The notes under the pieces were generated by a model that saw nothing but the letters and a program-made list of their open reading frames with translations, had not been told where the DNA came from and did not search any database. A stretch of DNA of 64,000 nt from a virus. The stretch spans positions 1 to 64,000 of the IMG/VR virus record IMGVR_UViG_3300008113_000029; one strand, written 5' to 3'. This document shows positions 14,390 to 64,000 of the stretch, one piece after another; the first letter of the stretch is position 1, and each line of letters begins with the position of its first letter. The translations under genes were made by a program, and so were the position numbers.

Positions 14390-15766
14390 TCACATGAGAT
14401 TCTGAACCTTGACTCTTCTGTAGTAACGGTTGACGTTCTGGGTAAGAGCGCCAGCGCCAACGGTGGTTCCTTCCGCGAATGGGTTTGCGACCATGCCGTA
14501 GCGGGTCTTAAAGCCAATCTTGGGCTGGAAGGTGTCCTGACCAACGGCACGAACCATTTGGAGAGGAACGTATGGGCAGTAGAAGAGACCAGCGTCATAA
14601 GGTGAAGAACCCTTATAACCAGCAACGTAGTACTGATCAGCACCAAGGTTTGCCGAATATGGGTCAATGTAGACGCGGAACTTACCAGCAAGAATACCTG
14701 CGAAGGTGTTGCCGGTGTCGTCAACGTTGAGGTTAGCGTTGAGTGCAGGGGTGTAATCAAGTACACCAGCCATGGTGAGGGCGGAAGCAACGTCTGCGGA
14801 GCAGAGGATCATGTTGCCCTTTCCTCTACGAGTTCTCTGGGCGATAGCGTTAGCGTCACGCTCGATCTGGAAGATCAGACCCTTGAACTTCTCAACTGAC
14901 CAACGACCGTTGGAGTCAACGTCGAGGTCGAAAGCGCCTTGGGTAGCTACGTTAGTAGCAGCACCTTGCTCAGCAACTCTGTAGATGGTTCTGATGACTT
15001 CGCGGTTGATCTCAGCAAGAATCTCAGTTGAGAGAATGTTTGCGAGTTCAGCCTCAGCATTCAGACCATGAATTGCCTTGAGGTCCTGAGCGAGTTCTAA
15101 CGAGTACTCAGCTTTCAGAGCTCTTGACTTGGCGGTAACGGTGACCTTCTCGATCGAGAATGCCATTTCGTTGAACGCACCGATGCCGTCACCTAGGTTC
15201 TCAGCATCGTCGGTACGCAGACCCTGACCTACGCTGTAGGTGTCGCCAACAATACCTGAAGTTGGGTTAAGAGCAGCAGGGTTTGAACCAGCCTGACCGG
15301 TTGTACCCATACCAACAGCACCAGCGGTGAAACCAGCGGTACGGTTGAAGTTGCTGTCCTGACCAGAGAATGCGGAATCTGCCTCATTGAACAGAGCTTC
15401 AGCACCACCTTGGGTCTTATACTTGGAGCGCATTGCGAAGATGAGTCCAGTAGGACCACTCATTGGTTGAACGCCAGCGAGGTCATAAGCGACCAGGTTA
15501 GGCATTGAACGACGGATCAGGGAGATCAGAACTGGATCGAAACCAGCAACGGTCTGACCACCTGCTGAGGTGTAACCACCGTTACCAACAGCGTTGGTTG
15601 GTGATTCGTGAAGGAATTCGCGCTCTTCACGAAGAGCGATTTCTTGGTTCTCCAGGAGTTGAGCAGTAACGGCTCTACGATGGGAATCCTTGATAGGATC
15701 CATACCATCATAGTCCAGAAGGGGTGCCCACTTCTCCTGCAGATGCTCGTTTAGGGGCATTTGCAT
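14390..15766 (-). CDS. 23: gp23 major capsid protein
   Basis: 458-residue T4-type major capsid protein. Recognisable stretches include PNLVAYDLAGVQPMSGPTGL (about 89-108), KVTVTAKSRALKAEYSLELA and the C-terminal KIGFKTRYGMVANPFAEG. An LHE/S site after residue 54 fits the (L/I)xE cleavage rule of the prohead protease, so the first 54 residues are probably removed on maturation. The start is the first ATG, with AGAGG nine bases upstream. It has a strong late promoter, a strong terminator and higher GC than most neighbours, as expected for a highly expressed gene. Confidence 0.97.
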   Translation of the reverse strand: MQMPLNEHLQEKWAPLLDYDGMDPIKDSHRRAVTAQLLENQEIALREEREFLHESPTNAVGNGGYTSAGGQTVAGFDPVLISLIRRSMPNLVAYDLAGVQPMSGPTGLIFAMRSKYKTQGGAEALFNEADSAFSGQDSNFNRTAGFTAGAVGMGTTGQAGSNPAALNPTSGIVGDTYSVGQGLRTDDAENLGDGIGAFNEMAFSIEKVTVTAKSRALKAEYSLELAQDLKAIHGLNAEAELANILSTEILAEINREVIRTIYRVAEQGAATNVATQGAFDLDVDSNGRWSVEKFKGLIFQIERDANAIAQRTRRGKGNMILCSADVASALTMAGVLDYTPALNANLNVDDTGNTFAGILAGKFRVYIDPYSANLGADQYYVAGYKGSSPYDAGLFYCPYVPLQMVRAVGQDTFQPKIGFKTRYGMVANPFAEGTTVGAGALTQNVNRYYRRVKVQNLM

Positions 15767-20406: not shown

Positions 20407-22593
20407 TCAGACGTTACCGATGACTTCCGAGAAGGAAACCCCAGTTCTGGTGGCGACAAAGGTTAGACCGATGAAGTTGATCGATCTGTTTGGTTTGATG
20501 TAGATATCAGCAACAAACTCGTTGTTGTCGATAACAGCAGCAGTATTATTTGTTTCATCACAAATAACGACATAATCAAAGATTCCTCTCTTAGCCTGGA
20601 CATCGCGGAGGAATGGTTCAACAATATTTACAAAGTTGGTTCTTGTGATCTCATCGTTGAACTCGAACAGTTGATCCCTAGCGGCAGCAGCAATTGCTTG
20701 CTCCAGATAGATGAAGAGGCGGCGAACGTTGATTCTATCGAACGCTGAAGACTTGGCGAAACCAGTCTTATCACCAAATAGAACGATACCATCACCAGGC
20801 GAGAAGATAACAGGGTTGATTCTGTTAGAATACAACTTATCTCTTTGGACCTTGCTTGGGTTGTAGGTCAACTTAACAGCGTTGAGGATAGCACCTCTAG
20901 CAGTACCAGCAGGTGAGAACCATGGGAAGTTGTTGAGGTCGTTTCTAGCACACAGACCAGCAATATCACCATTTAGTGGGATATAACGGAAGGCATCAGA
21001 GAATCTATCATAAGTGTACTTATAACCACTATCAAATACAGCGTAGGATGATGAAGTGATAGGAGCGTAGAAACTCAGAACATTATCGGTAATATCAGAG
21101 TCCGAGTTAACCGTTACTGAACCAACAGCACTATCGTTAAGGAACGCTAGTCTGTATGGTGAGATGAATGCGATAGCATCTTGTCTTGCTTCAGCAACTG
21201 CAATGAGTTTATTAGCAAGAGCTTGTGCAGTCTCCTTAGCATAATTTGCTGAACCCATCAACAGGAAGTCAATATCATAGTTATCGGTATTCTCAAAGAT
21301 ACCATAACCAGAAGATAATTTGGAGAGAGTTGAAGTTAGAGCACCAGACGAGGTGAGGTCTGTTCCATCATCATAGTTCTTACCACCACCTAGGGTGTAA
21401 GTGTTGCTTCCAGAAGCTGCAAAGTTAACTCCATCAGCATCTTGATCCCAACCGATGTCGCTAGCAAGAGTAAAGTTGCTGCTAAACGCTGTTGTTGTAA
21501 TACCAGCAGGAGCAGAACCACCAAAGACGTTTGTTGAAACGTTATAAAGATACTTTCTCCAGTAAGAAGAAGAACCTACAGAGTACTCGGCATCCTTTGC
21601 CTTGGAAAGTGCAACGTGCTTCTCAAGAATAGTACCAGCGTTTCCACTTACGGTTCCTTTGTCGTCAATAACAACAACATGGATTTCGTCGAATCTTGAG
21701 TTTCTAGCAGCAGCATAAGATGAAGTTGCAGGTCTATCAACGAGTGTATTCCAAGCAATGGTTGCTCCACTAGAAAGAGAAATGGTTTGTTGGTCAAACC
21801 AATCTTGTCTTGAGGTGTATGCCGTTTGACCTACTGCCGTTGTCTGACCAGTGGTGTGGATAGCAACAGAACCAGATGATGAGAAAGCATAAACACCAGC
21901 AGGTTGATAGTCAACCGAAGTCTCAGTTCCAGCAGCAGAAACGTGTGATAGAACTTTAACTTGAAGTGAGTATGGTGAGTCTGAAGTTCCAGAACCACTA
22001 ATACCTGTGACGATTCCCTTTAGATAACCATCAAGGGTGCTGGTTGAACCAGAACCTGGTAGGGTGGATGAAATTGCCTGTGTGATACCATATCCAACAG
22101 AAATAGTTGGAACTGTAGCACTTGTTTGAACGCCAGCAATAATTTGATCTGCTTTAGCGTCAATAGTGGCGACTCTAACGCCATTTGCCCAAGAACCAGG
22201 GTTTCTAGCAGTAAAGGTTACTCCACTGATAGTGTTCTCCTGATAACCTAACTGACCATAATGTTCAGTACTCTTAATCTTGATACTAGATGCTGTTCCA
22301 ACAAAAGCATTTGTAAGAGCATTATCGTCTGCTCTAACAACTTGAAGATTACCACCATACGCTAAGTATGAAGAGGCAACCATCCAATGCTCATAGTGCT
22401 TGTCGGTATTGTATGGCTCACCGAAATTCTTCAGTAGATCGGCTTCATCGCCAACAAGAACAGGTACATCGACTGGTCCCTTAGCAAAGGGAGCAACCAG
22501 AGCACCTACTGCACCATTAGTAGCATCAACTCTACCAACAGTGAGGTCAACCTCTCTTACTACAATTCCAGGAGATGCTAAATTTAGCGGCAT
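20407..22593 (-). CDS. 18: gp18 contractile tail sheath protein
   Basis: 728-residue sheath protein (T4 gp18 is 659). The N-terminus ASPGIVVREVDLT is the conserved sheath start. The C-terminal domain has NAVKLTYNPSKVQRDKLYSN, INPVIFSPGDGIVLFGDKT, NVRRLFIYLEQAIAAAARDQ and FNDEITR, the sheath core that forms the interlocking arms. The middle (about 150-480) holds the variable exposed domains. Its promoter is the AATAAATA at 22629. Confidence 0.97.
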   Translation of the reverse strand: MPLNLASPGIVVREVDLTVGRVDATNGAVGALVAPFAKGPVDVPVLVGDEADLLKNFGEPYNTDKHYEHWMVASSYLAYGGNLQVVRADDNALTNAFVGTASSIKIKSTEHYGQLGYQENTISGVTFTARNPGSWANGVRVATIDAKADQIIAGVQTSATVPTISVGYGITQAISSTLPGSGSTSTLDGYLKGIVTGISGSGTSDSPYSLQVKVLSHVSAAGTETSVDYQPAGVYAFSSSGSVAIHTTGQTTAVGQTAYTSRQDWFDQQTISLSSGATIAWNTLVDRPATSSYAAARNSRFDEIHVVVIDDKGTVSGNAGTILEKHVALSKAKDAEYSVGSSSYWRKYLYNVSTNVFGGSAPAGITTTAFSSNFTLASDIGWDQDADGVNFAASGSNTYTLGGGKNYDDGTDLTSSGALTSTLSKLSSGYGIFENTDNYDIDFLLMGSANYAKETAQALANKLIAVAEARQDAIAFISPYRLAFLNDSAVGSVTVNSDSDITDNVLSFYAPITSSSYAVFDSGYKYTYDRFSDAFRYIPLNGDIAGLCARNDLNNFPWFSPAGTARGAILNAVKLTYNPSKVQRDKLYSNRINPVIFSPGDGIVLFGDKTGFAKSSAFDRINVRRLFIYLEQAIAAAARDQLFEFNDEITRTNFVNIVEPFLRDVQAKRGIFDYVVICDETNNTAAVIDNNEFVADIYIKPNRSINFIGLTFVATRTGVSFSEVIGNV

Positions 22594-22628
22594 CTTCTAT
22601 TCTCCTTAGTCCAGAATTATTCTAGAAA

Positions 22629-22636
22629 TATTTATT
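22629..22636 (-). promoter_or_regulatory. late promoter octamer AATAAATA for gp18
   Basis: Minus strand AATAAATA 35 bases before the gp18 ATG; AAGGAG serves as a clear ribosome site closer to the start. Confidence 0.65.
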
Positions 22637-22675
22637 AAAAAGTGTCCTTTGAATGGGGAAACAGTGCGTGAACCG

Positions 22676-22906
22676 CTACCAGTCAGGATATTCCCACAGT
22701 TCTGTTGGTGTTGGTCTTTTCTTATTTGATAAAACTCTCTTCTTAGTACATTCCTTACATTCATAAGAATAGGCAGAAGGTAAAGCACCCCTGCCTTTTC
22801 TAGTTAGATAAAAGTCATCTATCAAATTTTTTATTTCTCCACAAATCCTACACTCCCTATCAAAAAGAAGTATGTGTTCTAGATTTATTTGATCTTCTAA
22901 GTCCAT
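22676..22906 (-). CDS. zinc-ribbon protein, 76 aa, next to terminase
   Basis: Four cysteines form a C-x2-C...C-x2-C zinc ribbon: CRIC (19-22) and CKEC (50-53), around IKNLIDDFYLTRKGRG. This is the layout of the zinc finger found at the start of many phage HNH endonucleases, but the HNH catalytic part is absent, so it may be a truncated endonuclease or a stand-alone DNA-binding protein. I chose the ATG at 22906, which overlaps the gp17 stop (TAATG), over a GTG at 22921. With the HNH gene it brackets gp17. Confidence 0.75.
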   Translation of the reverse strand: MDLEDQINLEHILLFDRECRICGEIKNLIDDFYLTRKGRGALPSAYSYECKECTKKRVLSNKKRPTPTELWEYPDW

Positions 22907-24558
22907 TAATAATATTCCCACATATAAGATCTATCACCATACTCATCGGTATGCCATCTATCTCCATCACTATCAACAAAAGTGCTTTCATCCAAACCAT
23001 CCAATATAAATCCAAATGGAGCCATATCTTGTTCTATTTGATTTTTTTGCTCTTCATAAATTCTTTTACGAATATCATTATCGGTCATCTCTTTGAAGTA
23101 TTCTTGTGCTACCAACCAAGAAAATATAACCAAGCACATCGCTAGGTCATCATTACATCCTTCCTCTGCCTCAAAGGAATTATGTCTTTGAGCAAATGTT
23201 GTAAGTTCCGATATAATATCGTAATCTACAGTCAATAACTTATCATCCTCCATAAGAGTTTTTAGGTTAGAGCAACCCAACTTCTTCACTGCTGCAGTCA
23301 TTCTTACACCCATCTGCGATTTCTTACCAGAGAAACCATGCCCGATAACTTGTCCGGCACGACCTCTCATTGCAGCCATAAGCATATTTTCATATTCTAA
23401 ATCATAGTGTAAAATATTAGCAACTTGTTCCCCAATATCATTAACCTCGATAAGTAACCAAGCATTATTATATCCCTTAGCAACATCGATAATAACACTT
23501 GGAAATAACATTGGTTTTATTTCATTATTTCTATACTTCGCCACTACCTTATATGGAAACTGTGTGATATCAAAAATAATAAATGCAGAGTAATCATTTC
23601 CAAGACCACGAGCAACGTCTACGGTGATTAAATAATTGTGCTCTTCCCGTGGTTTTTCATAAACGTCTAATCCGGCATTCCTTTTTATTGGATTTTCATA
23701 AACAAGATTTCTAAGTTTTGATGGGTTGATGAGAGTGTTGACTGATCCTAAGAATTCACACTCAAACTCAACCTTGAATTGTTGTTCTGAGGTGTTAGCA
23801 ATAGTTTGCTCTTTCCATGCATCATCTCTACCGGGAACTTCTGACCAGTGAACATCAGTGGGAACATATTCATTTTTATTTCTTTCCGCATCATGCCACA
23901 TGCGGTAGAAATGGTTCATACCCCTAGGGGTAGAAACAATAATTACCTTTGTGCTCTGTCCAGAAGAAATAGTAGGATAAACAGAGGCAAAGAAGTCATC
24001 AGCAATGTGATTTGGGATGAACGCGAACTCGTCGAGAAAGATGACATTATAGGATCCGCCTCGGACAGCAGATGACGAAGTAGAGTTAGACGAAATTTTG
24101 GAGCCATTTTCTAATTCTAAAGATCCTTTATTCCATGATATAATACCCTGCTGCATCCACTTCGGCAAGTTTTCATAAGCAAGTTGTAATCTTCCTAGAA
24201 GATCTCTAGCAGTAGATGCTTTGTTGGCTAGAATAGCTATATTAACATTGTCGTTGAAAACAGCATAATGTAACAAATATGAAACACAAGTCGTAGATTT
24301 ACCCGTCTGACGGGGCATTTTACAGATATTAAATCTATTTTTGTGGAAATTACTAATCAGTTTCTCTTGGAATGGGTACATCTCAAAAGGCACCAGACCA
24401 TGATCAAGCGACACGATCTTGATATAATTTCTAGCAAAATAAACTGGATCTTCTTTACACTTTAAGAACTCAATAATTCTATCTTCAGTCCATTCAATGG
24501 GAGTATTAGCTTTTTTGAGCAGAGGATTGCCCAAATAAACATCACTAGACATATTCAT
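22906..24558 (-). CDS. 17: gp17 terminase large subunit
   Basis: 550-residue packaging motor (T4 gp17 is 610). ATPase: Walker A MPRQTGKST (81-89), Walker B NVIFLDEFAF (171-180), coupling motif VSTPRG (208-213). RNase H-like nuclease: DVARGLGNDYS (314-324), LLIEVND (368-374) and EGCNDDLAMCL (466-476), giving the expected three acidic metal ligands. It translocates DNA into the prohead and cuts the concatemer. The start overlaps the HNH gene by 14 bases; a downstream start at the third codon (MSSDVYLGNP) is also possible. Confidence 0.97.
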   Translation of the reverse strand: MNMSSDVYLGNPLLKKANTPIEWTEDRIIEFLKCKEDPVYFARNYIKIVSLDHGLVPFEMYPFQEKLISNFHKNRFNICKMPRQTGKSTTCVSYLLHYAVFNDNVNIAILANKASTARDLLGRLQLAYENLPKWMQQGIISWNKGSLELENGSKISSNSTSSSAVRGGSYNVIFLDEFAFIPNHIADDFFASVYPTISSGQSTKVIIVSTPRGMNHFYRMWHDAERNKNEYVPTDVHWSEVPGRDDAWKEQTIANTSEQQFKVEFECEFLGSVNTLINPSKLRNLVYENPIKRNAGLDVYEKPREEHNYLITVDVARGLGNDYSAFIIFDITQFPYKVVAKYRNNEIKPMLFPSVIIDVAKGYNNAWLLIEVNDIGEQVANILHYDLEYENMLMAAMRGRAGQVIGHGFSGKKSQMGVRMTAAVKKLGCSNLKTLMEDDKLLTVDYDIISELTTFAQRHNSFEAEEGCNDDLAMCLVIFSWLVAQEYFKEMTDNDIRKRIYEEQKNQIEQDMAPFGFILDGLDESTFVDSDGDRWHTDEYGDRSYMWEYY

Positions 24559-25030
24559 ACCCCCTTTCTGGACCCCAATGTTTCATTCTGTAAGATAATC
24601 CCTGTATCGTTATACCTACATCATCTGCTGCCTCTTGTTGAGAAATATATATTTTTCCATTTATAGAAACTTTTTTGCTATTGGGGTGCTTCTCTCCACC
24701 CTCATACTTATGGCCAAAAGAGCGACCTTTCAGTGCCTCGCTTTTCTTTCTACAAGTTTCTTTACTATGCTTCCTACCAATATTTTTTTGAGTTGCCTTA
24801 TTTAAATTTTCCATAAACCAAGCATCATTGTGCCACCCACACTTATGTATCTCTCTACTACAAACATATAAATGCTCTGGTATATCTTTTCCACCTTCAC
24901 ATCTTGGTGGGAAATGATGAACATCCATACCTCTCATCTGTTCCCAAGTTAATCCCCAATTTTTTCGAGCAATATTTCTTACTGTTTTAGGACTTAACCT
25001 TTCCCTTGGAACTTTAATAATAGCAGACAC
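24545..25030 (-). CDS. HNH endonuclease with NUMOD-type DNA-binding repeats
   Basis: 161-residue homing-type endonuclease. The HNH core runs from MDVHHFPPRCEGGKD (35-49) through the Cys/His pairs of LYVCSREIHKCGWHNDA (54-70). A NUMOD3-like repeat GRKHSKETCRKKSEA (85-99) and an IENR1/NUMOD1-like helix-turn-helix ISQQEAADDVGITIQGLSYR (129-148) follow, as in free-standing phage homing nucleases. It starts at GTG and overlaps gp17 by 14 bases, so it uses the terminase gene's transcript. It probably targets a nearby site in related phages (inference). Confidence 0.88.
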   Translation of the reverse strand: MSAIIKVPRERLSPKTVRNIARKNWGLTWEQMRGMDVHHFPPRCEGGKDIPEHLYVCSREIHKCGWHNDAWFMENLNKATQKNIGRKHSKETCRKKSEALKGRSFGHKYEGGEKHPNSKKVSINGKIYISQQEAADDVGITIQGLSYRMKHWGPERGYEYV

Positions 25031-56419: not shown

Positions 56420-58300
56420 TTATCCCCTCTTTAGTTCTCCGTTTGAATAACTTGAAGTAACTTTATAACCGACGCCAGAAATCTGTTCGCCAGATGTTAT
56501 AGTATCTTTAACCATATTTATGGTGCTATCAGCAACAGAAAAGGATAGATATAGATCCTTTAGACCGATAATATCATTAGACTCTGGGAACGCCTGAATT
56601 TCGATAATATTGTTAGCAACCACCGTAGAAGTGATGTTTAAAGTGTTGAGAGTTATCTCACCCTTAGTGTAATCTACGGTGCCTGCAGACTTCACTACGA
56701 TCTCATACTTACCAGTCTCGTTAATATCCTTAACGATGGAAATAACGCCCTTCCCGTTGCTTCCGGGCACATCTGTGAAGTAGAATGTTCCTATTCTACC
56801 AGCAAGAGTAAATCCAGTACTCTTAATATTGAATCCATCCTTATTGATATGGAACTTGTTACCATAACACAGTTCATACTGTGCTGATTGATTAATCAGT
56901 GCCTTTAGATTTCTACGGATAATGACTCTTGTGATGTTTGAAGTGATCGCATTATCGGAATTATCAATAGTCTGACACAATCTACTATACTTAAATCTAC
57001 CACCAAACTGGTTGATATTTGCTTTTGCAAAAGTATTCAGAATCGAAATTACTTTAGTCTTCAAGGCATTGACGTTTGTAACCTGAGAGCTGTTATAATA
57101 GACTCCAGAGTTAATTTCAACATAAAGAACCTTAAGATCAGTGATTCTTTGGTTGATACCAGAAAGTGAATAATCTTTCAGTTTTGAAAGAATATTTTGC
57201 TTATCAAAATCCGAAACAAAGTCGCCATTCTTTGGTTTAATGCTAATAATGACGTTTCCAAACTGTGGTGGGTCCAACTCTTCGCCACCAACAACAGAAA
57301 CAGACTCTGTATTTGGATAAATCTGTTGAATAATCGCTTCATAGTCACGAGTCGTCACTGCTCTATGCTGAGAAGCGTAAATTCTTGGTGCAAAGTACTT
57401 AATTGAGTCAACACTTTCAATTGCACTACCGTTTGCTGCTGCATTTACGGTTGTAACGCTAATTGCATTGGTTGGGATGATCGGATTTCCCAAAGAATCT
57501 AAAAATCTACCGGAGAATGAGAAATTAGCAGCACCATTTCCATCTTCACCATCAGTAATGATGTAAGAAACGGTAATAATAGTGCCACTTTCTAATTTTT
57601 TACCAAAATATCCGTCTCCAAACAAAAGTTCATACTTTTCATCCTGAACTTCCTGAATCAAATAGATTTCTGAGGTCTTGTTAATATTTAAAATGTTATC
57701 AACACGGGAATATTCTCTTCCTTCACCACTATCAGAGAGTCCTTTGACTTTTACGACGATAGTTGAAGTGTCAATAAAGGAATTATCAAGGACAAAACGC
57801 TGATCAAGTGATCCATCAACCACAAATTGCTTCTTGAGGTATGTCCCTTGGTAGATCGTAATACTATTGAAAGAACCAGTACCAGAATTGATGGTTGTAG
57901 TAATGCTTTCTGGTATTGAGAAGATATAATTGCTGTTTTCTGCTGTTCCTACACACACTAGACCCGCCTCTAAGGTCATTGTATCCGATGATGAGGTAGT
58001 TTGTGCGTTCAAACTAATTGTTGCCTTAGCGGCGTTCCTAGAGCGAGGTACATAACCAATATTTCTTGCGAGAGAAACGACATTTTCTCTCAAAGTTGCC
58101 GAATCCAAGAAGGATTCGTTGACTACCATATTCGCATTGAACGCATTAATATAACTATTATACGCTAGAGTGTCGATTAAGACAGAAAAATTAGACCCCT
58201 CAAAGTCAAAATCCGTGAAATTTGAGTTAGCACGGAGATAATCTTTGATCGAGGTCCTTATTTGGTCAAAATCGAGGTTCGTAAACTTTGTAAAAGGCAT
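56420..58300 (-). CDS. 6: gp6 baseplate wedge protein
   Basis: 626 residues (T4 gp6 is 660). Conserved gp6/baseplate J features: FTKFTNLDFDQIRTSIKDYL at the start, LIDTLAYNSYINAFNANMVV and NESFLDSATLRENVVSLARN (about 47-86), then IGYVPRSRNAAKATI. FAPRIYASQHRAVTTRDYEA (about 301-320) is the characteristic baseplate-J core, followed by YPNTESVSVVGGEE. gp6 dimers form the inner baseplate ring and trigger sheath contraction. The start is four bases after gp25. Confidence 0.95.
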   Translation of the reverse strand: MPFTKFTNLDFDQIRTSIKDYLRANSNFTDFDFEGSNFSVLIDTLAYNSYINAFNANMVVNESFLDSATLRENVVSLARNIGYVPRSRNAAKATISLNAQTTSSSDTMTLEAGLVCVGTAENSNYIFSIPESITTTINSGTGSFNSITIYQGTYLKKQFVVDGSLDQRFVLDNSFIDTSTIVVKVKGLSDSGEGREYSRVDNILNINKTSEIYLIQEVQDEKYELLFGDGYFGKKLESGTIITVSYIITDGEDGNGAANFSFSGRFLDSLGNPIIPTNAISVTTVNAAANGSAIESVDSIKYFAPRIYASQHRAVTTRDYEAIIQQIYPNTESVSVVGGEELDPPQFGNVIISIKPKNGDFVSDFDKQNILSKLKDYSLSGINQRITDLKVLYVEINSGVYYNSSQVTNVNALKTKVISILNTFAKANINQFGGRFKYSRLCQTIDNSDNAITSNITRVIIRRNLKALINQSAQYELCYGNKFHINKDGFNIKSTGFTLAGRIGTFYFTDVPGSNGKGVISIVKDINETGKYEIVVKSAGTVDYTKGEITLNTLNITSTVVANNIIEIQAFPESNDIIGLKDLYLSFSVADSTINMVKDTITSGEQISGVGYKVTSSYSNGELKRG

Positions 58301-58304
58301 CTTT

Positions 58305-58706
58305 TTATCTGGTAGCCTCTAATAAGAATGTAAATTGCTGAGCAGGAACGTCTTGACCGATGATATTATACAAAACTGTGACTTCAAACGTGTTATTATC
58401 GGGTTGAGGATCGACTTCTACCCTAACATTGTTGACTCTTGGTTCAAAATTTTCGATTGTAGTCAGAATTTGCTCTTGAATTACGGTAGCAGTACCAAAA
58501 TCAACGAAATCGAACAGACTTGAACGCACATCTGACCCTAAAAGTGGTTGAAAAAAACGTTCATTTGGTATTGTCTGTACTAAATTACGAATCGAACGAG
58601 TAATTGCTGCCTCATTTTTGAGAATAGGCAGATCCTTGGTCACAGGATGTGGATCAAAAGACAAACTAATGTCCTTAAATGCTCTAGAAACCCGTGAGAT
58701 CGCCAT
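58305..58706 (-). CDS. 25: gp25 baseplate wedge protein
   Basis: 133 residues (T4 gp25 is 132). It has the gp25/lysozyme-like baseplate signature: FDPHPVTKDLPILKNEAAIT and IRNLVQTIPNERFFQPLLGS, followed by VRSSLFDF and an EPRVNNVRVEVDPQPDNNTF strand pair. gp25 starts sheath polymerisation at the baseplate. It has a perfect TATAAATA promoter, and gp6 follows after four bases. Confidence 0.96.
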   Translation of the reverse strand: MAISRVSRAFKDISLSFDPHPVTKDLPILKNEAAITRSIRNLVQTIPNERFFQPLLGSDVRSSLFDFVDFGTATVIQEQILTTIENFEPRVNNVRVEVDPQPDNNTFEVTVLYNIIGQDVPAQQFTFLLEATR

Positions 58707-60984: not shown

Positions 60985-61017
60985 TTTTGTTTTATATAGA
61001 AAATCTTGAAATTGGAC

Positions 61018-61060
61018 TTTGAGTAAACCTTTGAGTAAACCTTTGAGTAAACCTTTGAGT
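61018..61060. repeat. tandem direct repeat, 12-base unit, 3.6 copies
   Basis: TTTGAGTAAACC occurs three times in perfect tandem (61018-61053), followed by a partial TTTGAGT. It lies 34 bases upstream of the AbrB-like gene and could be an operator or a recombination hot spot. Confidence 0.85.
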
Positions 61061-61151
61061 CTTATAAAGAGCTAGCGATCGTAACACTTTGTAGGTTACA
61101 GGGACCCATGGGTTTTATATACACGCGCCGCGACCGCACGGGGGCGGCGGC

Positions 61152-61166
61152 GGGGGCACTGCCCCC
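61152..61166 (-). other. GC-rich hairpin at the island edge
   Basis: GGGGGC-ACT-GCCCCC forms a six-pair GC stem. There is no T run, so it is not a classical terminator, though it could stall transcription from the 60-residue gene. Confidence 0.5.
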
Positions 61167-61182
61167 TCACGAACCCAGGGGG

Positions 61183-61365
61183 TCACCAGGCAGGCAGTGC
61201 CTCCTGTGCCTCATCAGCCCACACCTCAGCGAACTGACCCGCGATGGCGTAGGCACTGATGCCCAACTGGGGCTGCAGGCCCGAACCGATGGCGGAGTCG
61301 TCGTTGCAGCGGGCGGTCCACACGATCTGACGGGTACGGAGGTCGGAGGATTGGGAGAGGATCAT
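61183..61365 (-). CDS. small hypothetical protein in GC-rich island, 60 aa
   Basis: MILSQSSDLRTRQIVWTARC at the start, then LQPQLGISAYAIAGQFAEVW and a short acidic end. No family recognised. A GATACT box and the shared ACTCTCAGTTCA leader motif precede it, as for the other small genes of this island, which is the main support for the frame. GC-rich codons match that block rather than the rest of the phage. Confidence 0.6.
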   Translation of the reverse strand: MILSQSSDLRTRQIVWTARCNDDSAIGSGLQPQLGISAYAIAGQFAEVWADEAQEALPAW

Positions 61366-61386
61366 GGGTCTGTCGGTTGAACTGAG

Positions 61387-61392
61387 AGTATC
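61387..61392 (-). promoter_or_regulatory. -10 box (GATACT) with ACTCTCA leader
   Basis: Minus strand GATACT 21 bases before the 60-residue gene, running into ACTCTCAGTTCA. An imperfect GC hairpin (61404-61423) sits just upstream. Confidence 0.45.
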
Positions 61393-61430
61393 CTACAGCA
61401 TCAGGGGGCACGAAGGTCCCCCCGTTACAA

Positions 61431-62180
61431 TCAGTAGGAAATGACCTGAGGCGCGGCATCGGCAACCAGAGCGGCGACCTTATCCTGCTGCAGTTTCAGC
61501 ACGACCTGAGAGTTGCGGTTCGCTTTGCTCAAACCCAGAAACGCCTTGATACCGTTGTTGCTGGTCACACGGAGACGGAGACCAAGGTCCAGGGTTTCAC
61601 CGTTACCCTTGAGAACGATGCGGCGGGAGGTCGTGCCCTTACCAGCGACCAGGTGGGCAGTGTAACCAGCAGAGAGGCAACGGGCGGCACGGATGGTATC
61701 GTGACCCATCACATAGCAGCGTTGGGCGGCGGTGTCGTTGATGACCATCGACATCCCATGGTTGGCGTCGATCAGTTCAGAGATCAACCAAGCGGTGAGG
61801 GTCTCAGAGGTGATGGCGTTCAGGGCATCGCTGCAAACCTCATTGAACAGGTCACGGGTCTCTTCCACAATAGCGGTACGCTCAGCGGCACCCCAGTTAC
61901 GGGCGGTGCTGATAAAGGAGCGGAAGTCCTCAAAGCGGGAGGAGTCCAGAAGGGCATCGGTTTGGGAGGTGTTCACCCAGTCAAAGGAACCGTTACGAAG
62001 ACCTGCCTTGTGCTTGATGCTGATAGGAGTAGCACCCGCCATAGCGTCTGCCTTGTTACGGGTGCCGCCCAGGTGGGTGACGGTCTCAGCGAACACCTGA
62101 TGGGCGTTCAGCAGAGCGATGGTGTCGTGCTCATTAGCGACGCCAGAGTGGTGAACGGAACCGTTGGTTTGGAAGGTCAT
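61431..62180 (-). CDS. GC-rich island protein, 249 aa, possible nuclease-like fold
   Basis: The N-terminal third has HHSGVANEHDTIALLNAHQV, VTHLGGTRNKADAMAG and PISIKHKAGLRNGSFDW. A D followed by a SIKHK strand and a preceding helix with a conserved E (ANEHD) resembles the PD-(D/E)xK nuclease core, with K in the ExK position, but the match is loose. The rest is mixed with a RRIVLKGNGETLDLGLRLRV sheet. Function unknown. It has the best promoter of the island and GC-rich codons. Confidence 0.75.
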   Translation of the reverse strand: MTFQTNGSVHHSGVANEHDTIALLNAHQVFAETVTHLGGTRNKADAMAGATPISIKHKAGLRNGSFDWVNTSQTDALLDSSRFEDFRSFISTARNWGAAERTAIVEETRDLFNEVCSDALNAITSETLTAWLISELIDANHGMSMVINDTAAQRCYVMGHDTIRAARCLSAGYTAHLVAGKGTTSRRIVLKGNGETLDLGLRLRVTSNNGIKAFLGLSKANRNSQVVLKLQQDKVAALVADAAPQVISY

Positions 62181-62219
62181 TTGGGAATCGGGTGAGCGCC
62201 ACCCGTCTGAACTGAGAGT

Positions 62220-62248
62220 AATGTAAGCGATTTTGGGGGTCAGGTCAA
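62220..62248 (-). promoter_or_regulatory. sigma70-like promoter for the 249-aa gene
   Basis: Minus strand TTGACC (62243-62248), 17-base spacer, TACATT (62220-62225), followed by ACTCTCAGTTCA. The -35 lies in the loop of a GGGGGTC/GACCCCC hairpin (62235-62255). Confidence 0.65.
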
Positions 62249-62272
62249 GACCCCCGGACAGTTGTCAGACCG

Positions 62273-62524
62273 TCACAGGTCAGCCAGCATCTCATCCAAC
62301 TCATCGGTGTCGATGGTAGGGTCCATCCAGCGAGCACCGTCAGGAGTCATCTGCCCGAACTGAGATTCCAGGCGGGGGATCAGGCGATCATAGGAATCGT
62401 AGCGGCAGGCGACCTTGTAAAGGTTCTCATCGTTCTGGAGCCAGAGGGCGACGTTCCAGGTTGCCCAATTTGCCCATCCGTTGTAGGTTTCGGTTTCGGG
62501 GATCATGGAGGTGAGTGCTTGCAT
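62273..62524 (-). CDS. conserved phage protein with NGWxNWxTWNV motif, 83 aa
   Basis: NGWANWATWNVALWLQNDE (about 15-33) followed by LYKVACRYDS is a conserved motif of small phage and plasmid proteins with no known function. The C-terminus is acidic (DPTIDTDELDEMLADL). It belongs to the GC-rich island, with its own TACAAT box and an SD-less ACGCAACCAACCA leader. Confidence 0.8.
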   Translation of the reverse strand: MQALTSMIPETETYNGWANWATWNVALWLQNDENLYKVACRYDSYDRLIPRLESQFGQMTPDGARWMDPTIDTDELDEMLADL

Positions 62525-62545
62525 TGGTTGGTTGCGTGTGAGTGT

Positions 62546-62551
62546 ATTGTA
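62546..62551 (-). promoter_or_regulatory. -10 box TACAAT with ACACTCACACGCAACC leader
   Basis: Minus strand TACAAT directly after the TGACCCCT that ends the preceding gene, 21 bases before the 83-residue gene. No -35 seen. Confidence 0.5.
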
Positions 62552-62556
62552 AGGGG

Positions 62557-62727
62557 TCAGGCGACCAGCGCCGACTCCATGTGGACGGTTTGCAGATTGA
62601 CCTCAGCCCAATCGTATTCTTCCTTCAGTTGGGCGCAGCGGGCATCAGCAGCAGACTTGCAATCCCACAGGGAGCAATGATCATCAGATTCATAGAAGAA
62701 TCCAGCGGTGACGACGTAGACTTGCAT
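62557..62727 (-). CDS. small hypothetical protein, 56 aa, GC-rich island
   Basis: MQVYVVTAGFFYESDDHCSL at the start, then a helix with CKSAADARCAQLKEEYDW. Three cysteines are present. No family recognised. AAAGGAAA six bases before the ATG is a good ribosome site, and a TATACT box lies upstream. The gene ends with TGACCCC, which runs into the next promoter. Confidence 0.65.
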   Translation of the reverse strand: MQVYVVTAGFFYESDDHCSLWDCKSAADARCAQLKEEYDWAEVNLQTVHMESALVA

Positions 62728-62750
62728 CGGGTTTCCTTTGAACTGAGATC

Positions 62751-62756
62751 AGTATA
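62751..62756 (-). promoter_or_regulatory. -10 box TATACT with CTCAGTTCA leader
   Basis: Minus strand TATACT, five bases after the TGA of the preceding gene, followed by GATCTCAGTTCAAAGGAAA. Confidence 0.5.
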
Positions 62757-62761
62757 AGGGG

Positions 62762-62929
62762 TCAGCGGGCGATCAGGTCACCAGTGGTGTGCAGTAGGTC
62801 TGCTGTCACAGTGCGGATGGGTCGGATCGGTTCCCATAGCAACCACAGCACAACAGCGGTAACGGTCAAGCGGAGCATGGTCTGTCGGTGAAACTCAGGG
62901 GAGCGGGAGCGGGTCAGAGCGTTGATCAT
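62762..62929 (-). CDS. small single-span membrane protein, 55 aa
   Basis: MINALTRSRSPEFHRQTMLR followed by a hydrophobic segment LTVTAVVLWLLW (21-32), then a soluble tail. The basic N-terminus suggests N-in topology. The ATG overlaps the upstream TGA (ATGA), so it is translationally coupled to the 53-residue gene. It could act on the host membrane, but function is unknown. Confidence 0.6.
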   Translation of the reverse strand: MINALTRSRSPEFHRQTMLRLTVTAVVLWLLWEPIRPIRTVTADLLHTTGDLIAR

Positions 62930-63087
62930 CGTTCCAGTTGTGCCAGGGAGGAGGGGGCGATGTGAGAGGGTGACCCACAGGACCTGTAGAAGTCTACCAT
63001 ACGGTCTGCCTCTTCCTTAGTCGTGAACCATTGCGACCGCCACTCGCAGGCATTGTAGGGGGTCTGGTAACGGACTTCAAAGCGCAT
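62926..63087 (-). CDS. small hypothetical protein, 53 aa, GC-rich island
   Basis: MRFEVRYQTPYNACEWRSQW, then FTTKEEADRMVDFYRSCGSP: an alpha/beta pattern of one strand pair and a helix, typical of tiny phage early proteins. It has a TACAAT box and an SD-less ACGCAACCAAACC leader like that of the 83-residue gene. It is coupled to the 55-residue membrane protein by a 4-base overlap. Confidence 0.65.
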   Translation of the reverse strand: MRFEVRYQTPYNACEWRSQWFTTKEEADRMVDFYRSCGSPSHIAPSSLAQLER

Positions 63088-63111
63088 GGGGTTTGGTTGC
63101 GTTGTGAGAGT

Positions 63112-63117
63112 ATTGTA
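63112..63117 (-). promoter_or_regulatory. -10 box TACAAT with ACTCTCACAACGCAACC leader
   Basis: Minus strand TACAAT 24 bases before the 53-residue gene; the leader shares ACGCAACCAA with that of the 83-residue gene. Confidence 0.5.
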
Positions 63118-63128
63118 GCAGATCAGGG

Positions 63129-63302
63129 TCAGTCCCTGTCGGAGACGGTCCAGGTGCCGTAGGTAGCATGGTCGGGTGCCTGGTAGGTTCCCTCAGCGTG
63201 TGCTTTGAGAATCTCCTCCCGACGCTTTGCCTCAGCGTTCACCTTTGCGGTGTAGTCAGCCATGATGGAGGACATGTCCAGTTTGGTGGATTGTTTCTTC
63301 AT
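63129..63302 (-). CDS. small hypothetical protein, 57 aa, GC-rich island
   Basis: MKKQSTKLDMSSIMADYTAK, then a charged helix (VNAEAKRREEILKAHAEGTY) and a C-terminal TYGTWTVSDRD. No family recognised. Its start is unusual: TATACT lies only six bases upstream of the ATG in a 24-base sequence repeated at the 58-residue gene, so the mRNA could begin at the ATG itself. Confidence 0.6.
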   Translation of the reverse strand: MKKQSTKLDMSSIMADYTAKVNAEAKRREEILKAHAEGTYQAPDHATYGTWTVSDRD

Positions 63303-63321
63303 GCTCTTAGTATAGGGGGTC
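63298..63321. repeat. 24-base direct repeat containing -10 box and start codon, copy 1
   Basis: The plus strand TTCATGCTCTTAGTATAGGG, followed by GGTC, is identical to 63495-63518. Each copy holds the complement of a start codon and of a TATACT box. Confidence 0.85.
63309..63314 (-). promoter_or_regulatory. -10 box TATACT six bases before a start codon
   Basis: Minus strand TATACT-AAGAGC-ATG. Normal spacing to a transcript start would place it at or within the ATG, predicting leaderless mRNA. AAGAG is too close to be a usual ribosome site. Confidence 0.45.
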
Positions 63322-63322
63322 C

Positions 63323-63499
63323 TCAGTTGAACCAGTAGGCAAGTTGTGCCAGTTCCTCTGCCGTCTCCTGTACGTTGTCGGGGGTCAGACGTGCCAGGAT
63401 ACGCTCTGCATCCTCCTCAGGCACATAGGAGAGGTCACCGTTGATCTCAGCAGCAAGGGCAGAGGCGATGGAGATGCAGCGGGATTGGAGTTCTTTCAT
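63323..63499 (-). CDS. small hypothetical protein, 58 aa, GC-rich island
   Basis: MKELQSRCISIASALAAEIN, then a strongly helical acidic half (EEDAERILARLT and NVQETAEELAQLAYWF). The ATG at 63499 is chosen because it sits in the repeated TATACT-ATG element; the longer frame to 63562 has a Pro/Thr-rich extension without support. Function unknown. Confidence 0.6.
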   Translation of the reverse strand: MKELQSRCISIASALAAEINGDLSYVPEEDAERILARLTPDNVQETAEELAQLAYWFN

Positions 63500-63518
63500 G
63501 CTCTTAGTATAGGGGGTC
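63495..63518. repeat. 24-base direct repeat containing -10 box and start codon, copy 2
   Basis: Identical to 63298-63321, located at the start of the 58-residue gene. Confidence 0.85.
63506..63511 (-). promoter_or_regulatory. -10 box TATACT six bases before a start codon, second copy
   Basis: Minus strand TATACT-AAGAGC-ATG ahead of the 58-residue gene, the same as at 63309. Confidence 0.45.
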
Positions 63519-63570
63519 TGGGGGTGCTGTGGCGGTTTGGTGGACAGTCCGGGAAGTGGCACAAGGTGGG

Positions 63571-63598
63571 TTGTGGGGGGTTGCCGCTGCCCTATAAT
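63571..63598 (+). promoter_or_regulatory. plus-strand promoter-like sequence
   Basis: TTGTGG (63571-63576), 16-base spacer, TATAAT (63593-63598) on the plus strand, in a minus-strand genome. The -35 is weak. It would direct a short RNA toward the hairpin at 63694-63711. Confidence 0.35.
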
Positions 63599-63686
63599 AA
63601 GGTCACAAGCGAAGGAGGGGCAGGGTCGCCCTGATGACGAAAACGGTCGCCACCGAACCTGCCTTCCGGTAATTATAAAAAAGTAT

Positions 63687-63711
63687 AAAAAAAGGGAGGC
63701 AATTGCCTCCC
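63687..63711 (-). terminator. terminator of the gene entering the window
   Basis: GGGAGGCAATTGCCTCCC (63694-63711) is a perfect palindrome followed, on the minus strand, by seven T. It is six bases after the TAA. Confidence 0.9.
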
Positions 63712-63717
63712 TATTGT

Positions 63718-64000
63718 TTATGCGAACATGAAACCATTGGTAAACTCATACTCATTGTAGACAGGAGAAGTTCCTGCCTGTCCAACGAACTTGTGAATGT
63801 ACCAATTCCAGTTCCGTTGAAATACACCTTCGCTAGCGACTCCGTGCTCTTTGAGAATAGCATTCAGACGGGATTTGGTGGTGACAGACTGATAACCACC
63901 GTCGAAGATCTGAACGAAGTTATCACCAATGATGGCGATTTTGTTACCGTGAAGGTATACGGTGGACTCGTTAGTTTCGGGATCGTAGGAGACTTCGGTG
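63718..64000 (-). CDS. conserved phage protein, C-terminal 93 aa
   Basis: The reading frame enters from beyond the window and ends in a TAA. Readable segments are TVYLHGNKIAIIGDNFVQIF, DGGYQSVTTKSRLNAILKEH and QRNWNWYIHKF, ending VYNEYEFTNGFMFA. This strand-helix pattern with a KSRLNAIL helix is common in small phage proteins of unknown function. The start is not in the window. It is followed by a strong terminator and has normal phage base composition. Confidence 0.8.
   Translation of the reverse strand, partial: TEVSYDPETNESTVYLHGNKIAIIGDNFVQIFDGGYQSVTTKSRLNAILKEHGVASEGVFQRNWNWYIHKFVGQAGTSPVYNEYEFTNGFMFA

Follow-up and report, generated by a model that had tools for sequence, protein, structure and literature searches.

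A putative promoter-leader module is reused in front of small genes in a conserved island near gp25 of T4-like cyanophages

Within one viral genome fragment, a run of very small genes departs sharply in base composition from its surroundings and several of these genes are preceded by the same short sequence, which raises the questions of what this repeated sequence is, how the genes came to share it and where the run came from. The DNA analyzed here (the window) comprises positions 1-64,000, most of the 76,178-base IMG/VR record IMGVR_UViG_3300008113_000029, and the run occupies 61100-63660 (the block). A first-pass annotation had read the block as an early-gene cluster for host takeover, transferred from elsewhere and built by duplicating one regulatory module. 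The best DNA matches in the phage collection (7 records) were Synechococcus phages S-SRM01, S-SCSM2R and S-CAM9; the source is a T4-like cyanophage (Kyanoviridae), in which small genes form a conserved island near gp25 that has the block at one of its ends. Our results support the view that the repeated motif, judged by its anatomy, is a promoter-leader module that is reused before unrelated small genes.

The block has a GC content of 58.0% compared with 38.3% in the window before it, and among 2,560-nt segments outside the block that start before 58 kb (100-nt steps), the maximum was 48.0%. Beyond the block, GC is still 49-50% as far as about 64.4 kb. The shift is largest at third codon positions (0.69 in the block vs 0.28). 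Recounting the single lines at 61501, 62281, 63121 and 54361, for which hand counts of about 52, 58, 65 and 30% had been given, yielded 51.7, 58.3, 65.0 and 30.0%. The seven genes under 85 residues and the one of 249 that had been listed were all found (60, 249, 83, 56, 55, 53, 57 and 58 aa), every one on the minus strand. The genes gp25 and gp6 occupy 56420-58706 (-) of the window, so that the block lies upstream of both in the direction of transcription.

The module is laid out as an element of dyad symmetry (present often), a spacing of 28-31 nt, a -10 hexamer, 6 nt, the hexamer AGTTCA, a short T-poor leader and ATG, and transcription is predicted to start at the A of AGTTCA. The four leader strings quoted in the first-pass annotation were all present, and its proposal that most genes have a private -10 box held for seven of the eight, each with a hexamer resembling a -10 at promoter distance (62762-62929 has none). 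The string TCTCAGTTCA occurs in three exact copies in the window, every one within the block; with one mismatch it is not enriched there (13 vs 9.9 expected; a count of 13 is attained in 21 of 100 shuffles). An IMG/VR scan for the 18-mer TATACTGATCTCAGTTCA returned at least 120 stretches, often with several copies per stretch. When up to 3 mismatches were allowed, the 18-mer was found 44 times on the gene strand and twice on the other strand of 76 loci fetched by protein (once in one shuffle), and it is this strand bias in relatives, not the window counts, that sets the motif above chance. From the listed matches, 141 module copies were left once those at least 70% alike outside the motif had been removed; a set of 460 copies was obtained by removing identical contexts and keeping close relatives. 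A 37-column matrix gave 646 sites above 14 bits vs 1 in a shuffle, in a collection where many loci were motif-selected.

The spacing of the module to its gene is tightly constrained. The ATG lies 27-57 nt past the start of the -10 in 448 of the 460 copies and 27-36 nt past it in 443, and 430 of 431 closed frames after a module had at least 30 aa, whereas 685 of 2,300 random nearby positions led to such a frame. A sigma-70-type -10 is present: among 454 copies, the hexamer was TATACT in 238, TACAAT in 109 and TATAAT in 38 (385 together). The six bases ahead of AGTTCA are variable (GATCTC 190, TCTCTC 56, ACTCTC 53, GACTTC 35), while the predicted +1 to +6 read AGTTCA in 402 of the 454. The leader has a median length of 17 nt with 2.8% T past AGTTCA, and Shine-Dalgarno-like words were not in excess in these leaders (42/431 vs 37 shuffled).

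The small-gene region was taken from 12 isolates (S-CAM3, S-PM2, S-SRM01, Syn1, S-RSM4, P-RSM4, P-SSM2, Syn19, S-SKS1, S-H9-1, S-WAM2 and S-RIM8). Small hypothetical open reading frames (ORFs) occur in runs near gp25 in these isolates, the S-H9-1 stretch being without gp25 itself, and the module pattern matched 16 times over the 12 (3 for the control). In S-PM2, 11 modules above 11 bits lie within about 3 kb (21,542-24,583 of NC_006820.1), and a genome-wide pattern search placed 8 of 8 matches inside this island, with 1 match for the control. Three of the 11 module genes are exactly coding sequences (CDSs) of NC_006820.1, namely 22340-22774 (annotated antirestriction), 24347-24547 and 24617-24802. 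The reference annotation lacks the other eight, small ORFs led by a module between 21570 and 24299; for one of them, 22097-22264, the later record LN828717.1 does give an annotation. Those CDS coordinates of NC_006820.1 that were checked are correct. Six other isolates had 1-2 copies above 11 bits each in the stretches examined.

A -35 of the sigma-70 type (5/6 matches at 16-18 nt) was found in only a minority of module copies (37/451 vs 3.6 in shuffles). The upstream dyad has the consensus TGTGNCAGTT-N4-AACTG(T/G)CCAC. Of 451 copies, 90 contain its half-site TG(G/T)NCA(C/T), compared with 26.5 in shuffles, and in 81 of these the half-site ends 29-30 nt ahead of the -10. With all 451 copies taken together, the best axis of symmetry fell 42.5 nt before the -10 start, at 0.373 complementary (mean 0.260, next 0.293). 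Reading this conserved piece as a 3' stem-loop was given up, since it keeps a constant distance from the -10, as is more likely for a promoter element. Away from modules, 101 further pair sites were found, 65 of them with TANNNT at 28-31 nt. With this genome and S-PM2 excluded, 72 dyads served to train a matrix, which detected 10 sites in the present record (0 in five shuffles); in S-PM2 it detected 15 (1, 2 and 0 in three shuffles). Searching 13 whole isolate genomes with up to 3 mismatches gave 95 matches vs 11 for the reversed pattern, and in the stretches from the 12 isolates TANNNT stood 27-32 nt past the dyad in 22 of 35 cases vs 623 of 4,800 random positions. Based on these counts across isolates, the dyad appears to be a promoter element of the whole family, to which AGTTCA would be an island-specific addition.

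The near-fixation of AGTTCA next to six variable bases could also mean that the hexamer is chiefly a start signal at the RNA level, resembling the start-associated sequence (SAS) of mycobacteriophages and bound by a phage or host factor, with the -10 being an ordinary one. The T-poor leader and its lack of a Shine-Dalgarno excess agree with such a role. However, AGTTCA sits at the predicted initiation point, so that start-site choice also explains its constancy, and promoters with the dyad and without AGTTCA exist too. We consider an RNA-level signal doubtful as the chief function and retain the promoter-leader interpretation.

The module genes fall into 76 protein clusters, hereafter about 75 because one of the 76 comes from a bacterial genome (L202) that matched by chance. 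Their order varied, the 153 directly adjacent module-gene pairs being of 114 kinds, and one gene cluster occurred twice in only 1 of 133 locus-strands; therefore the array did not arise through tandem copying of a module along with its gene. The idea of a single duplicated regulatory module thus survives in part: the module is reused before unrelated genes, but no duplication of module and gene together is seen. An antirestriction PHROG was matched by 1 of the 76 cluster representatives, and Pfam and PADLOC searches with one representative per cluster returned mainly families of unknown function and weak matches.

This mosaic order brings to mind the promoter-early stem-loop (PeSL) cassettes reportedly described in T4-type phages (Arbiol 2010, Comeau 2014), and the module might likewise serve chiefly as shared homology for gene swapping between phages, with promoter activity secondary. 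Homology breaks per near-identical pair were about three times as frequent in module regions (82 ends in 101 pairs vs 273 in 980; 88% identity), and GC-rich stems are enriched upstream (score of at least 10 in 147/430 vs 26 shuffled), as would fit such a role. However, the share of breaks at a gene start was the same with the module (30/82) and without it (101/273), the stems upstream of the -10 had no T run behind them in the copies examined, and the fixed spacing between -10 and ATG serves expression rather than recombination. An initial breakpoint count that favored the module proved to be biased by the removal of identical contexts, and a fairer set showed no excess. We regard gene swapping as an unlikely main function, in preference to which the module is taken here as an expression element.

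As to the origin of the island, its GC and codon usage depart sharply from the rest of the genome, as would be expected of a GC-rich segment recently transferred from the host or another phage. The earlier claim of transfer is nevertheless not supported. In 40 of 41 relatives with room, the distance between the 249-aa gene and gp25 is 1.5-6.7 kb, S-PM2 also has a GC-rich island by gp25, and GGCC is avoided in the island (61101-64400; 1 vs 11.3 expected) as well as outside it (5 vs 32.9 expected). Because of the common locus and the shared GGCC avoidance, recent import of the block is unlikely. In the cellular genome collection, the exact 18-mer had 3 matches vs about 7 expected by chance, and the single module-like one of the 3 is on a 3.9-kb contig of a metagenome-assembled genome. 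Weighing all of this, we hold a recent transfer to be very improbable. The first-pass annotation had said that its reading would be refuted if related phages all carried the block at the same place with equal GC; the shared place of the 249-aa gene comes near to that outcome, but the GC at this gene is not equal, varying from 0.37 to 0.60 among 30 loci listed. Block GC tracks module count over the 76 protein-fetched loci (Spearman 0.74, for loci that are not independent), and the module is present in 34 of 35 loci with a GC of at least 0.5 vs 8 of 41 at lower GC. The module is separable from GC, since 22 of 431 module genes are below 0.45 GC, some of them in AT-rich loci (L111, L172). In this record AGCT and CCGG are avoided as well, and outside the S-PM2 island CCGG occurs 0 times vs 85 expected; avoidance of these tetramers suggests restriction pressure or a phage nuclease.

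Codon usage of the block correlates with that of the 431 module genes at r 0.95 and with the rest of the window at r 0.09; both checks proposed earlier, GC and codon usage, set the block apart. AGA, TTA, ATA, CCA and TCA are nearly absent from it. ARAGORN found tRNAs in S-PM2 with anticodons for the avoided codons, and nine codons (AGA, TTA, ATA, TCA, CCA, ACA, GGA, GTA and CTA) account for 22 of 792 in the S-PM2 module genes; the counts are 7,914 of 44,746 across 130 further ORFs and 47 of 467 for one gp23-like gene. Host-like codons combined with avoidance of codons read by phage tRNAs suggest translation early in infection. By ARAGORN, the S-PM2 tRNAs lie near 118 kb and 163 kb, with one at 102.9 kb; NC_006820.1 also has annotated tRNA features at 17.4-19.3 kb, where ARAGORN finds none.

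Alternatively, the genes may be high in GC because they are strongly expressed in a GC-rich host, at whatever time of infection, and not because they are early. Outside the block, the sole ORF of at least 80 aa above 47% GC is 14390-15766 (-) of the window, which we take to encode the major capsid protein, presumably a late abundant product; it has 52% GC and its codon usage correlates with the block at 0.74, consistent with this alternative. Against it, this gene still uses AGA, CCA and TCA (0.33, 0.41 and 0.38), which are near-absent from the block (0.00, 0.00 and 0.02). We judge expression strength without early timing to be somewhat unlikely, and early translation remains our preferred account of the codon pattern.

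We then consider what the largest product of the block may do. Among 50,697 phage records, nothing matched the 249-aa protein credibly, in a search that may miss near records. Weak and inconsistent Pfam matches of its relatives were set aside, and the sequence searches turned up no member of a PD-(D/E)XK family. An AlphaFold2 model based on 37 sequences has a mean predicted local distance difference test (pLDDT) score of 91. The top Foldseek rows for this model were tRNA-synthetase-like at E 0.035 or worse and a template modeling (TM) score of 0.2 or below. When the top 1,000 Foldseek chains were realigned with VIA-align, HinP1I ranked first (Z 9.4, root-mean-square deviation (rmsd) 4.7, 187 aligned), and the next structures were Hjc (Z 8.2, rmsd 3.0, 103 aligned), I-Ssp6803I (6.6) and DpnI (5.8); unrelated rows had Z below 4, and a best Z of 7-8 is common according to the tool's warning. 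These four are PD-(D/E)XK enzymes, as presumably are all of the top eight realigned structures, and E17, D45, K56 and K58 are invariant in the 37 aligned sequences. The 249-aa protein is tentatively predicted to be a PD-(D/E)XK nuclease, with a modeled fold that may be that of HinP1I and Hjc, although, unlike such nucleases, it has no Pfam family, no PDB sequence match and no Foldseek match at E of 0.001 or lower. GCGC stands at 0.60 of expected, a weaker avoidance than that of GGCC, AGCT and CCGG, and because it is only weak, we claim no cleavage specificity for the nuclease.

The leader of the 249-aa gene carries a hairpin topped by GTG/CAC, which was present in 32 of 46 distinct leaders of relatives by a strict count (35 kept by eye). 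Its outer pairs are altered on both sides in relatives (GGG/CCC, GC/GC and CC/GG), and it may be a translational operator. Another conserved leader piece, GGGAACGGCAGCGCCCTAAAGACTCC or GGAACGTTCCGCGCCCTATAAAGACGGA, occurs just upstream of the 249-aa gene in some relatives (L019, L026, L029, L068, L070, L064, L069, L074 and L075), and an Rfam search of L019, L064, L068, L070 and L075 found nothing.

The module, its orientation and its fixed ATG spacing are directly visible in the genomes compared, as are its restriction to a single island in S-PM2, its reuse before about 75 clusters and the host-like codons. Together they describe an expression module that is real, conserved and reusable and that belongs to a phage family already known; its mechanism we infer from anatomy. 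We propose that host RNA polymerase would start at AGTTCA early in infection and, since most copies have no -35, that a protein bound to the dyad would help it at module promoters. The mRNAs would be translated without Shine-Dalgarno pairing, by host tRNAs, before phage tRNAs accumulate, and the products would act on the host (antirestriction, a nuclease and many of no known function). Host-like codons, the antirestriction family and the predicted nuclease fold make early expression and host takeover plausible.

Several observations weigh against this proposal. Start sites, timing and activator are all putative. By the pattern used, 361 of 451 copies have no recognizable right half-site, and the full half-site pair was found in 45 of 451 (0 shuffled), a low share. 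Two of the eight block genes have AAGAGC and two have lost AGTTCA. Five of the 12 isolates (Syn1, P-RSM4, P-SSM2, Syn19 and S-RIM8) had 0 copies above 11 bits in the stretches examined. Codon avoidance is not separable from high GC at third positions, and ARAGORN found no tRNA gene in the 76-kb record, so that the tRNA argument rests on S-PM2. With these points included, we hold with moderate confidence that the conserved gp25 island consists of separately promoted small genes expressed early by the host polymerase. A broader model is tentative, and we would sooner doubt it than accept it: Kyanoviridae would use a family-wide class of dyad-activated early promoters, which in the island would be fused to a near-invariant 5' mRNA tag, AGUUCA with a U-poor leader. 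By this tag, dozens of unrelated host-takeover mRNAs would be singled out for preferential translation on host ribosomes without Shine-Dalgarno pairing, and through host-like codons before phage tRNAs, in a portable format spread by gene exchange. The available part of a 2010 review (PMC2984593) called early and middle transcription of T4-like cyanophages, which have neither the T4 modifying proteins nor MotA, "unclear". The module makes this long-unclear step of infection testable by offering predicted starts and a candidate activator site, and the motif picks out candidate host-takeover and counter-defence genes in about 75 clusters, most of them without known function.

The features of the block and its surroundings are collected in Table 1.

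Table 1. Features in and around the block (window coordinates)
Feature	Position	Strand	Remarks
gp25 baseplate wedge gene	58305..58706	-	conserved neighbor anchoring the island
60-aa gene	61183..61365	-	-10 TAGGAT 61390-61395, AGTTCA leader; cluster with 25 module-bearing members in loci
Module core TAGGAT-ACTCTC-AGTTCA	61378..61395	-	28.3 bits
249-aa gene, predicted PD-(D/E)XK nuclease fold	61431..62180	-	family in 76 IMG/VR loci; model pLDDT 91
Leader hairpin CGGGTG-GCGCT-CACCCG of 249-aa gene	62189..62205	-	8 nt before ATG
Module core TACATT-ACTCTC-AGTTCA	62208..62225	-	TTGACC, -35-like hexamer, 17 nt upstream
83-aa gene, DUF7249 / phrog_871	62273..62524	-	-10 TACAAT 62546-62551; ACACTCACACGC, AGTTCA absent
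56-aa gene, no assigned function	62557..62727	-	cluster with 24 module-bearing members
Module core TATACT-GATCTC-AGTTCA	62739..62756	-	52.7 bits, top score of the record
Dyad 30 nt before -10 of the 62739..62756 core	62787..62810	-	21.3 bits, matrix trained without this genome
55-aa protein with hydrophobic stretch	62762..62929	-	without own -10; start overlaps stop of upstream gene
53-aa gene	62926..63087	-	-10 TACAAT 63112-63117; leader CTCTCACAACG, AGTTCA lost
57-aa gene	63129..63302	-	-10 TATACT 63309-63314, then AAGAGC, then ATG
58-aa gene	63323..63499	-	-10 TATACT 63506-63511, then AAGAGC, then ATG
Dyad TGTGCCACTTCCCGGACTGTCCAC	63540..63563	-	28 nt before -10 of first gene of block; 34.0 bits
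Conserved non-coding element, single copy	63589..63666	-	upstream edge of array
Terminator-like hairpin and T run	63693..63712	-	after gene upstream of block
115-aa gene	63718..64000, on to 64065 of record	-	weaker module copy at 64097 (CATACT..AGATCA, 19.4 bits)

Beyond the block the island continues, as the 115-aa gene has a weaker module copy of its own. Stop codons of the form TGACCCC had been said to feed straight into the next promoter; this is so at the stops of 62557 and 62762 and nearly so at 63129, but not at the other genes. The dyad at 62787..62810 lies inside the coding end of the upstream gene. In the two AAGAGC genes (63129 and 63323), the predicted start coincides with the A of ATG, and their sites at 63309-63314 and 63506-63511 are possibly leaderless starts; the TATACT-AAGAGC-ATG class, with 11 sites in the loci vs 3 in a shuffle, is too rare to call.

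The element at 63589-63666 (-) is about 75 bp of non-coding DNA whose core in relatives is GGGCTACCCCGCCCCTCCTTCGCTTGTG. An exact 28-mer from it was found in 53 IMG/VR stretches, one copy each, and among 47 copies modules lay downstream in 44 and on the opposite strand in none. As an RNA fold it had no covariation support (RNAalifold, 27 copies, covariation term -0.07). A hammerhead-like CTGATGA..GAAA near 63632 (+) was dropped, given that same covariation term and no Rfam match, and a 16-codon frame in the element was dropped by eye, its variable positions not being codon-like and one copy having an extra base. Rfam identified no family in the window or in eight loci, and terminator-like sites were not in excess over the whole region (2 found vs 2.5 expected). 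Adjoining the block, CTTTGAGTAAAC stands in three perfect tandem copies at 61017-61052.

How does the module relate to known systems? A limited literature search, in which subscription papers were little covered, turned up no description of the AGTTCA module. Doron 2016 reportedly described a novel early regulatory element of Syn9 that is conserved in T4-like cyanophages and was proposed to drive early genes. In the Syn9 stretch, 3 of 4 dyad sites are followed at 28-31 nt by a -10-like hexamer. This element may be the dyad itself, which would then be known already; we liken the two by description, not by sequence, and at the same level of comparison the AGTTCA leader module and the gene array may be distinct from it. 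As with PeSLs, promoter-containing elements are repeated between small, shuffled and mostly uncharacterized genes of T4-like phages, and the PeSL feature of a promoter directly before the gene is matched by the -10 spacing, 27-36 nt before the ATG in most copies. The cyanophage module differs in its combination of dyad and -10, mostly without a -35, in its fixed AGTTCA leader, in having no T run after stems in the copies examined and in having no excess of breaks over other gene borders. According to the accessible part of PMC4503421, PeSLs are too sparse to account for the S-PM2 ORFanage, and the S-PM2 module array (21.5-24.6 kb) is outside the ORFanage region treated there.

The SAS and extended SAS of cluster K mycobacteriophages, as described in the available parts of PMC3203893 and PMC12699233, are likewise short directional repeats just before the starts of many unrelated small genes, with a frequent upstream inverted repeat, and are absent or nearly so in hosts. 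The SAS overlaps a ribosome-binding site with AGGAG, whereas the cyanophage leader has no Shine-Dalgarno excess; the SAS sequence at that site, GGGATAGGAGCCC, differs from the module, the host is another, and the cyanophage repeat includes a -10. In the halovirus HF2 (PMC8707807, as far as its accessible text goes), intergenic repeats of 58 and 29 bp with AT-rich motifs belong to an archaeal virus, and in common with the cyanophage array they are repeated promoter-carrying intergenic elements, conserved in position within the virus genus, for which promoter activity was measured in HF2.

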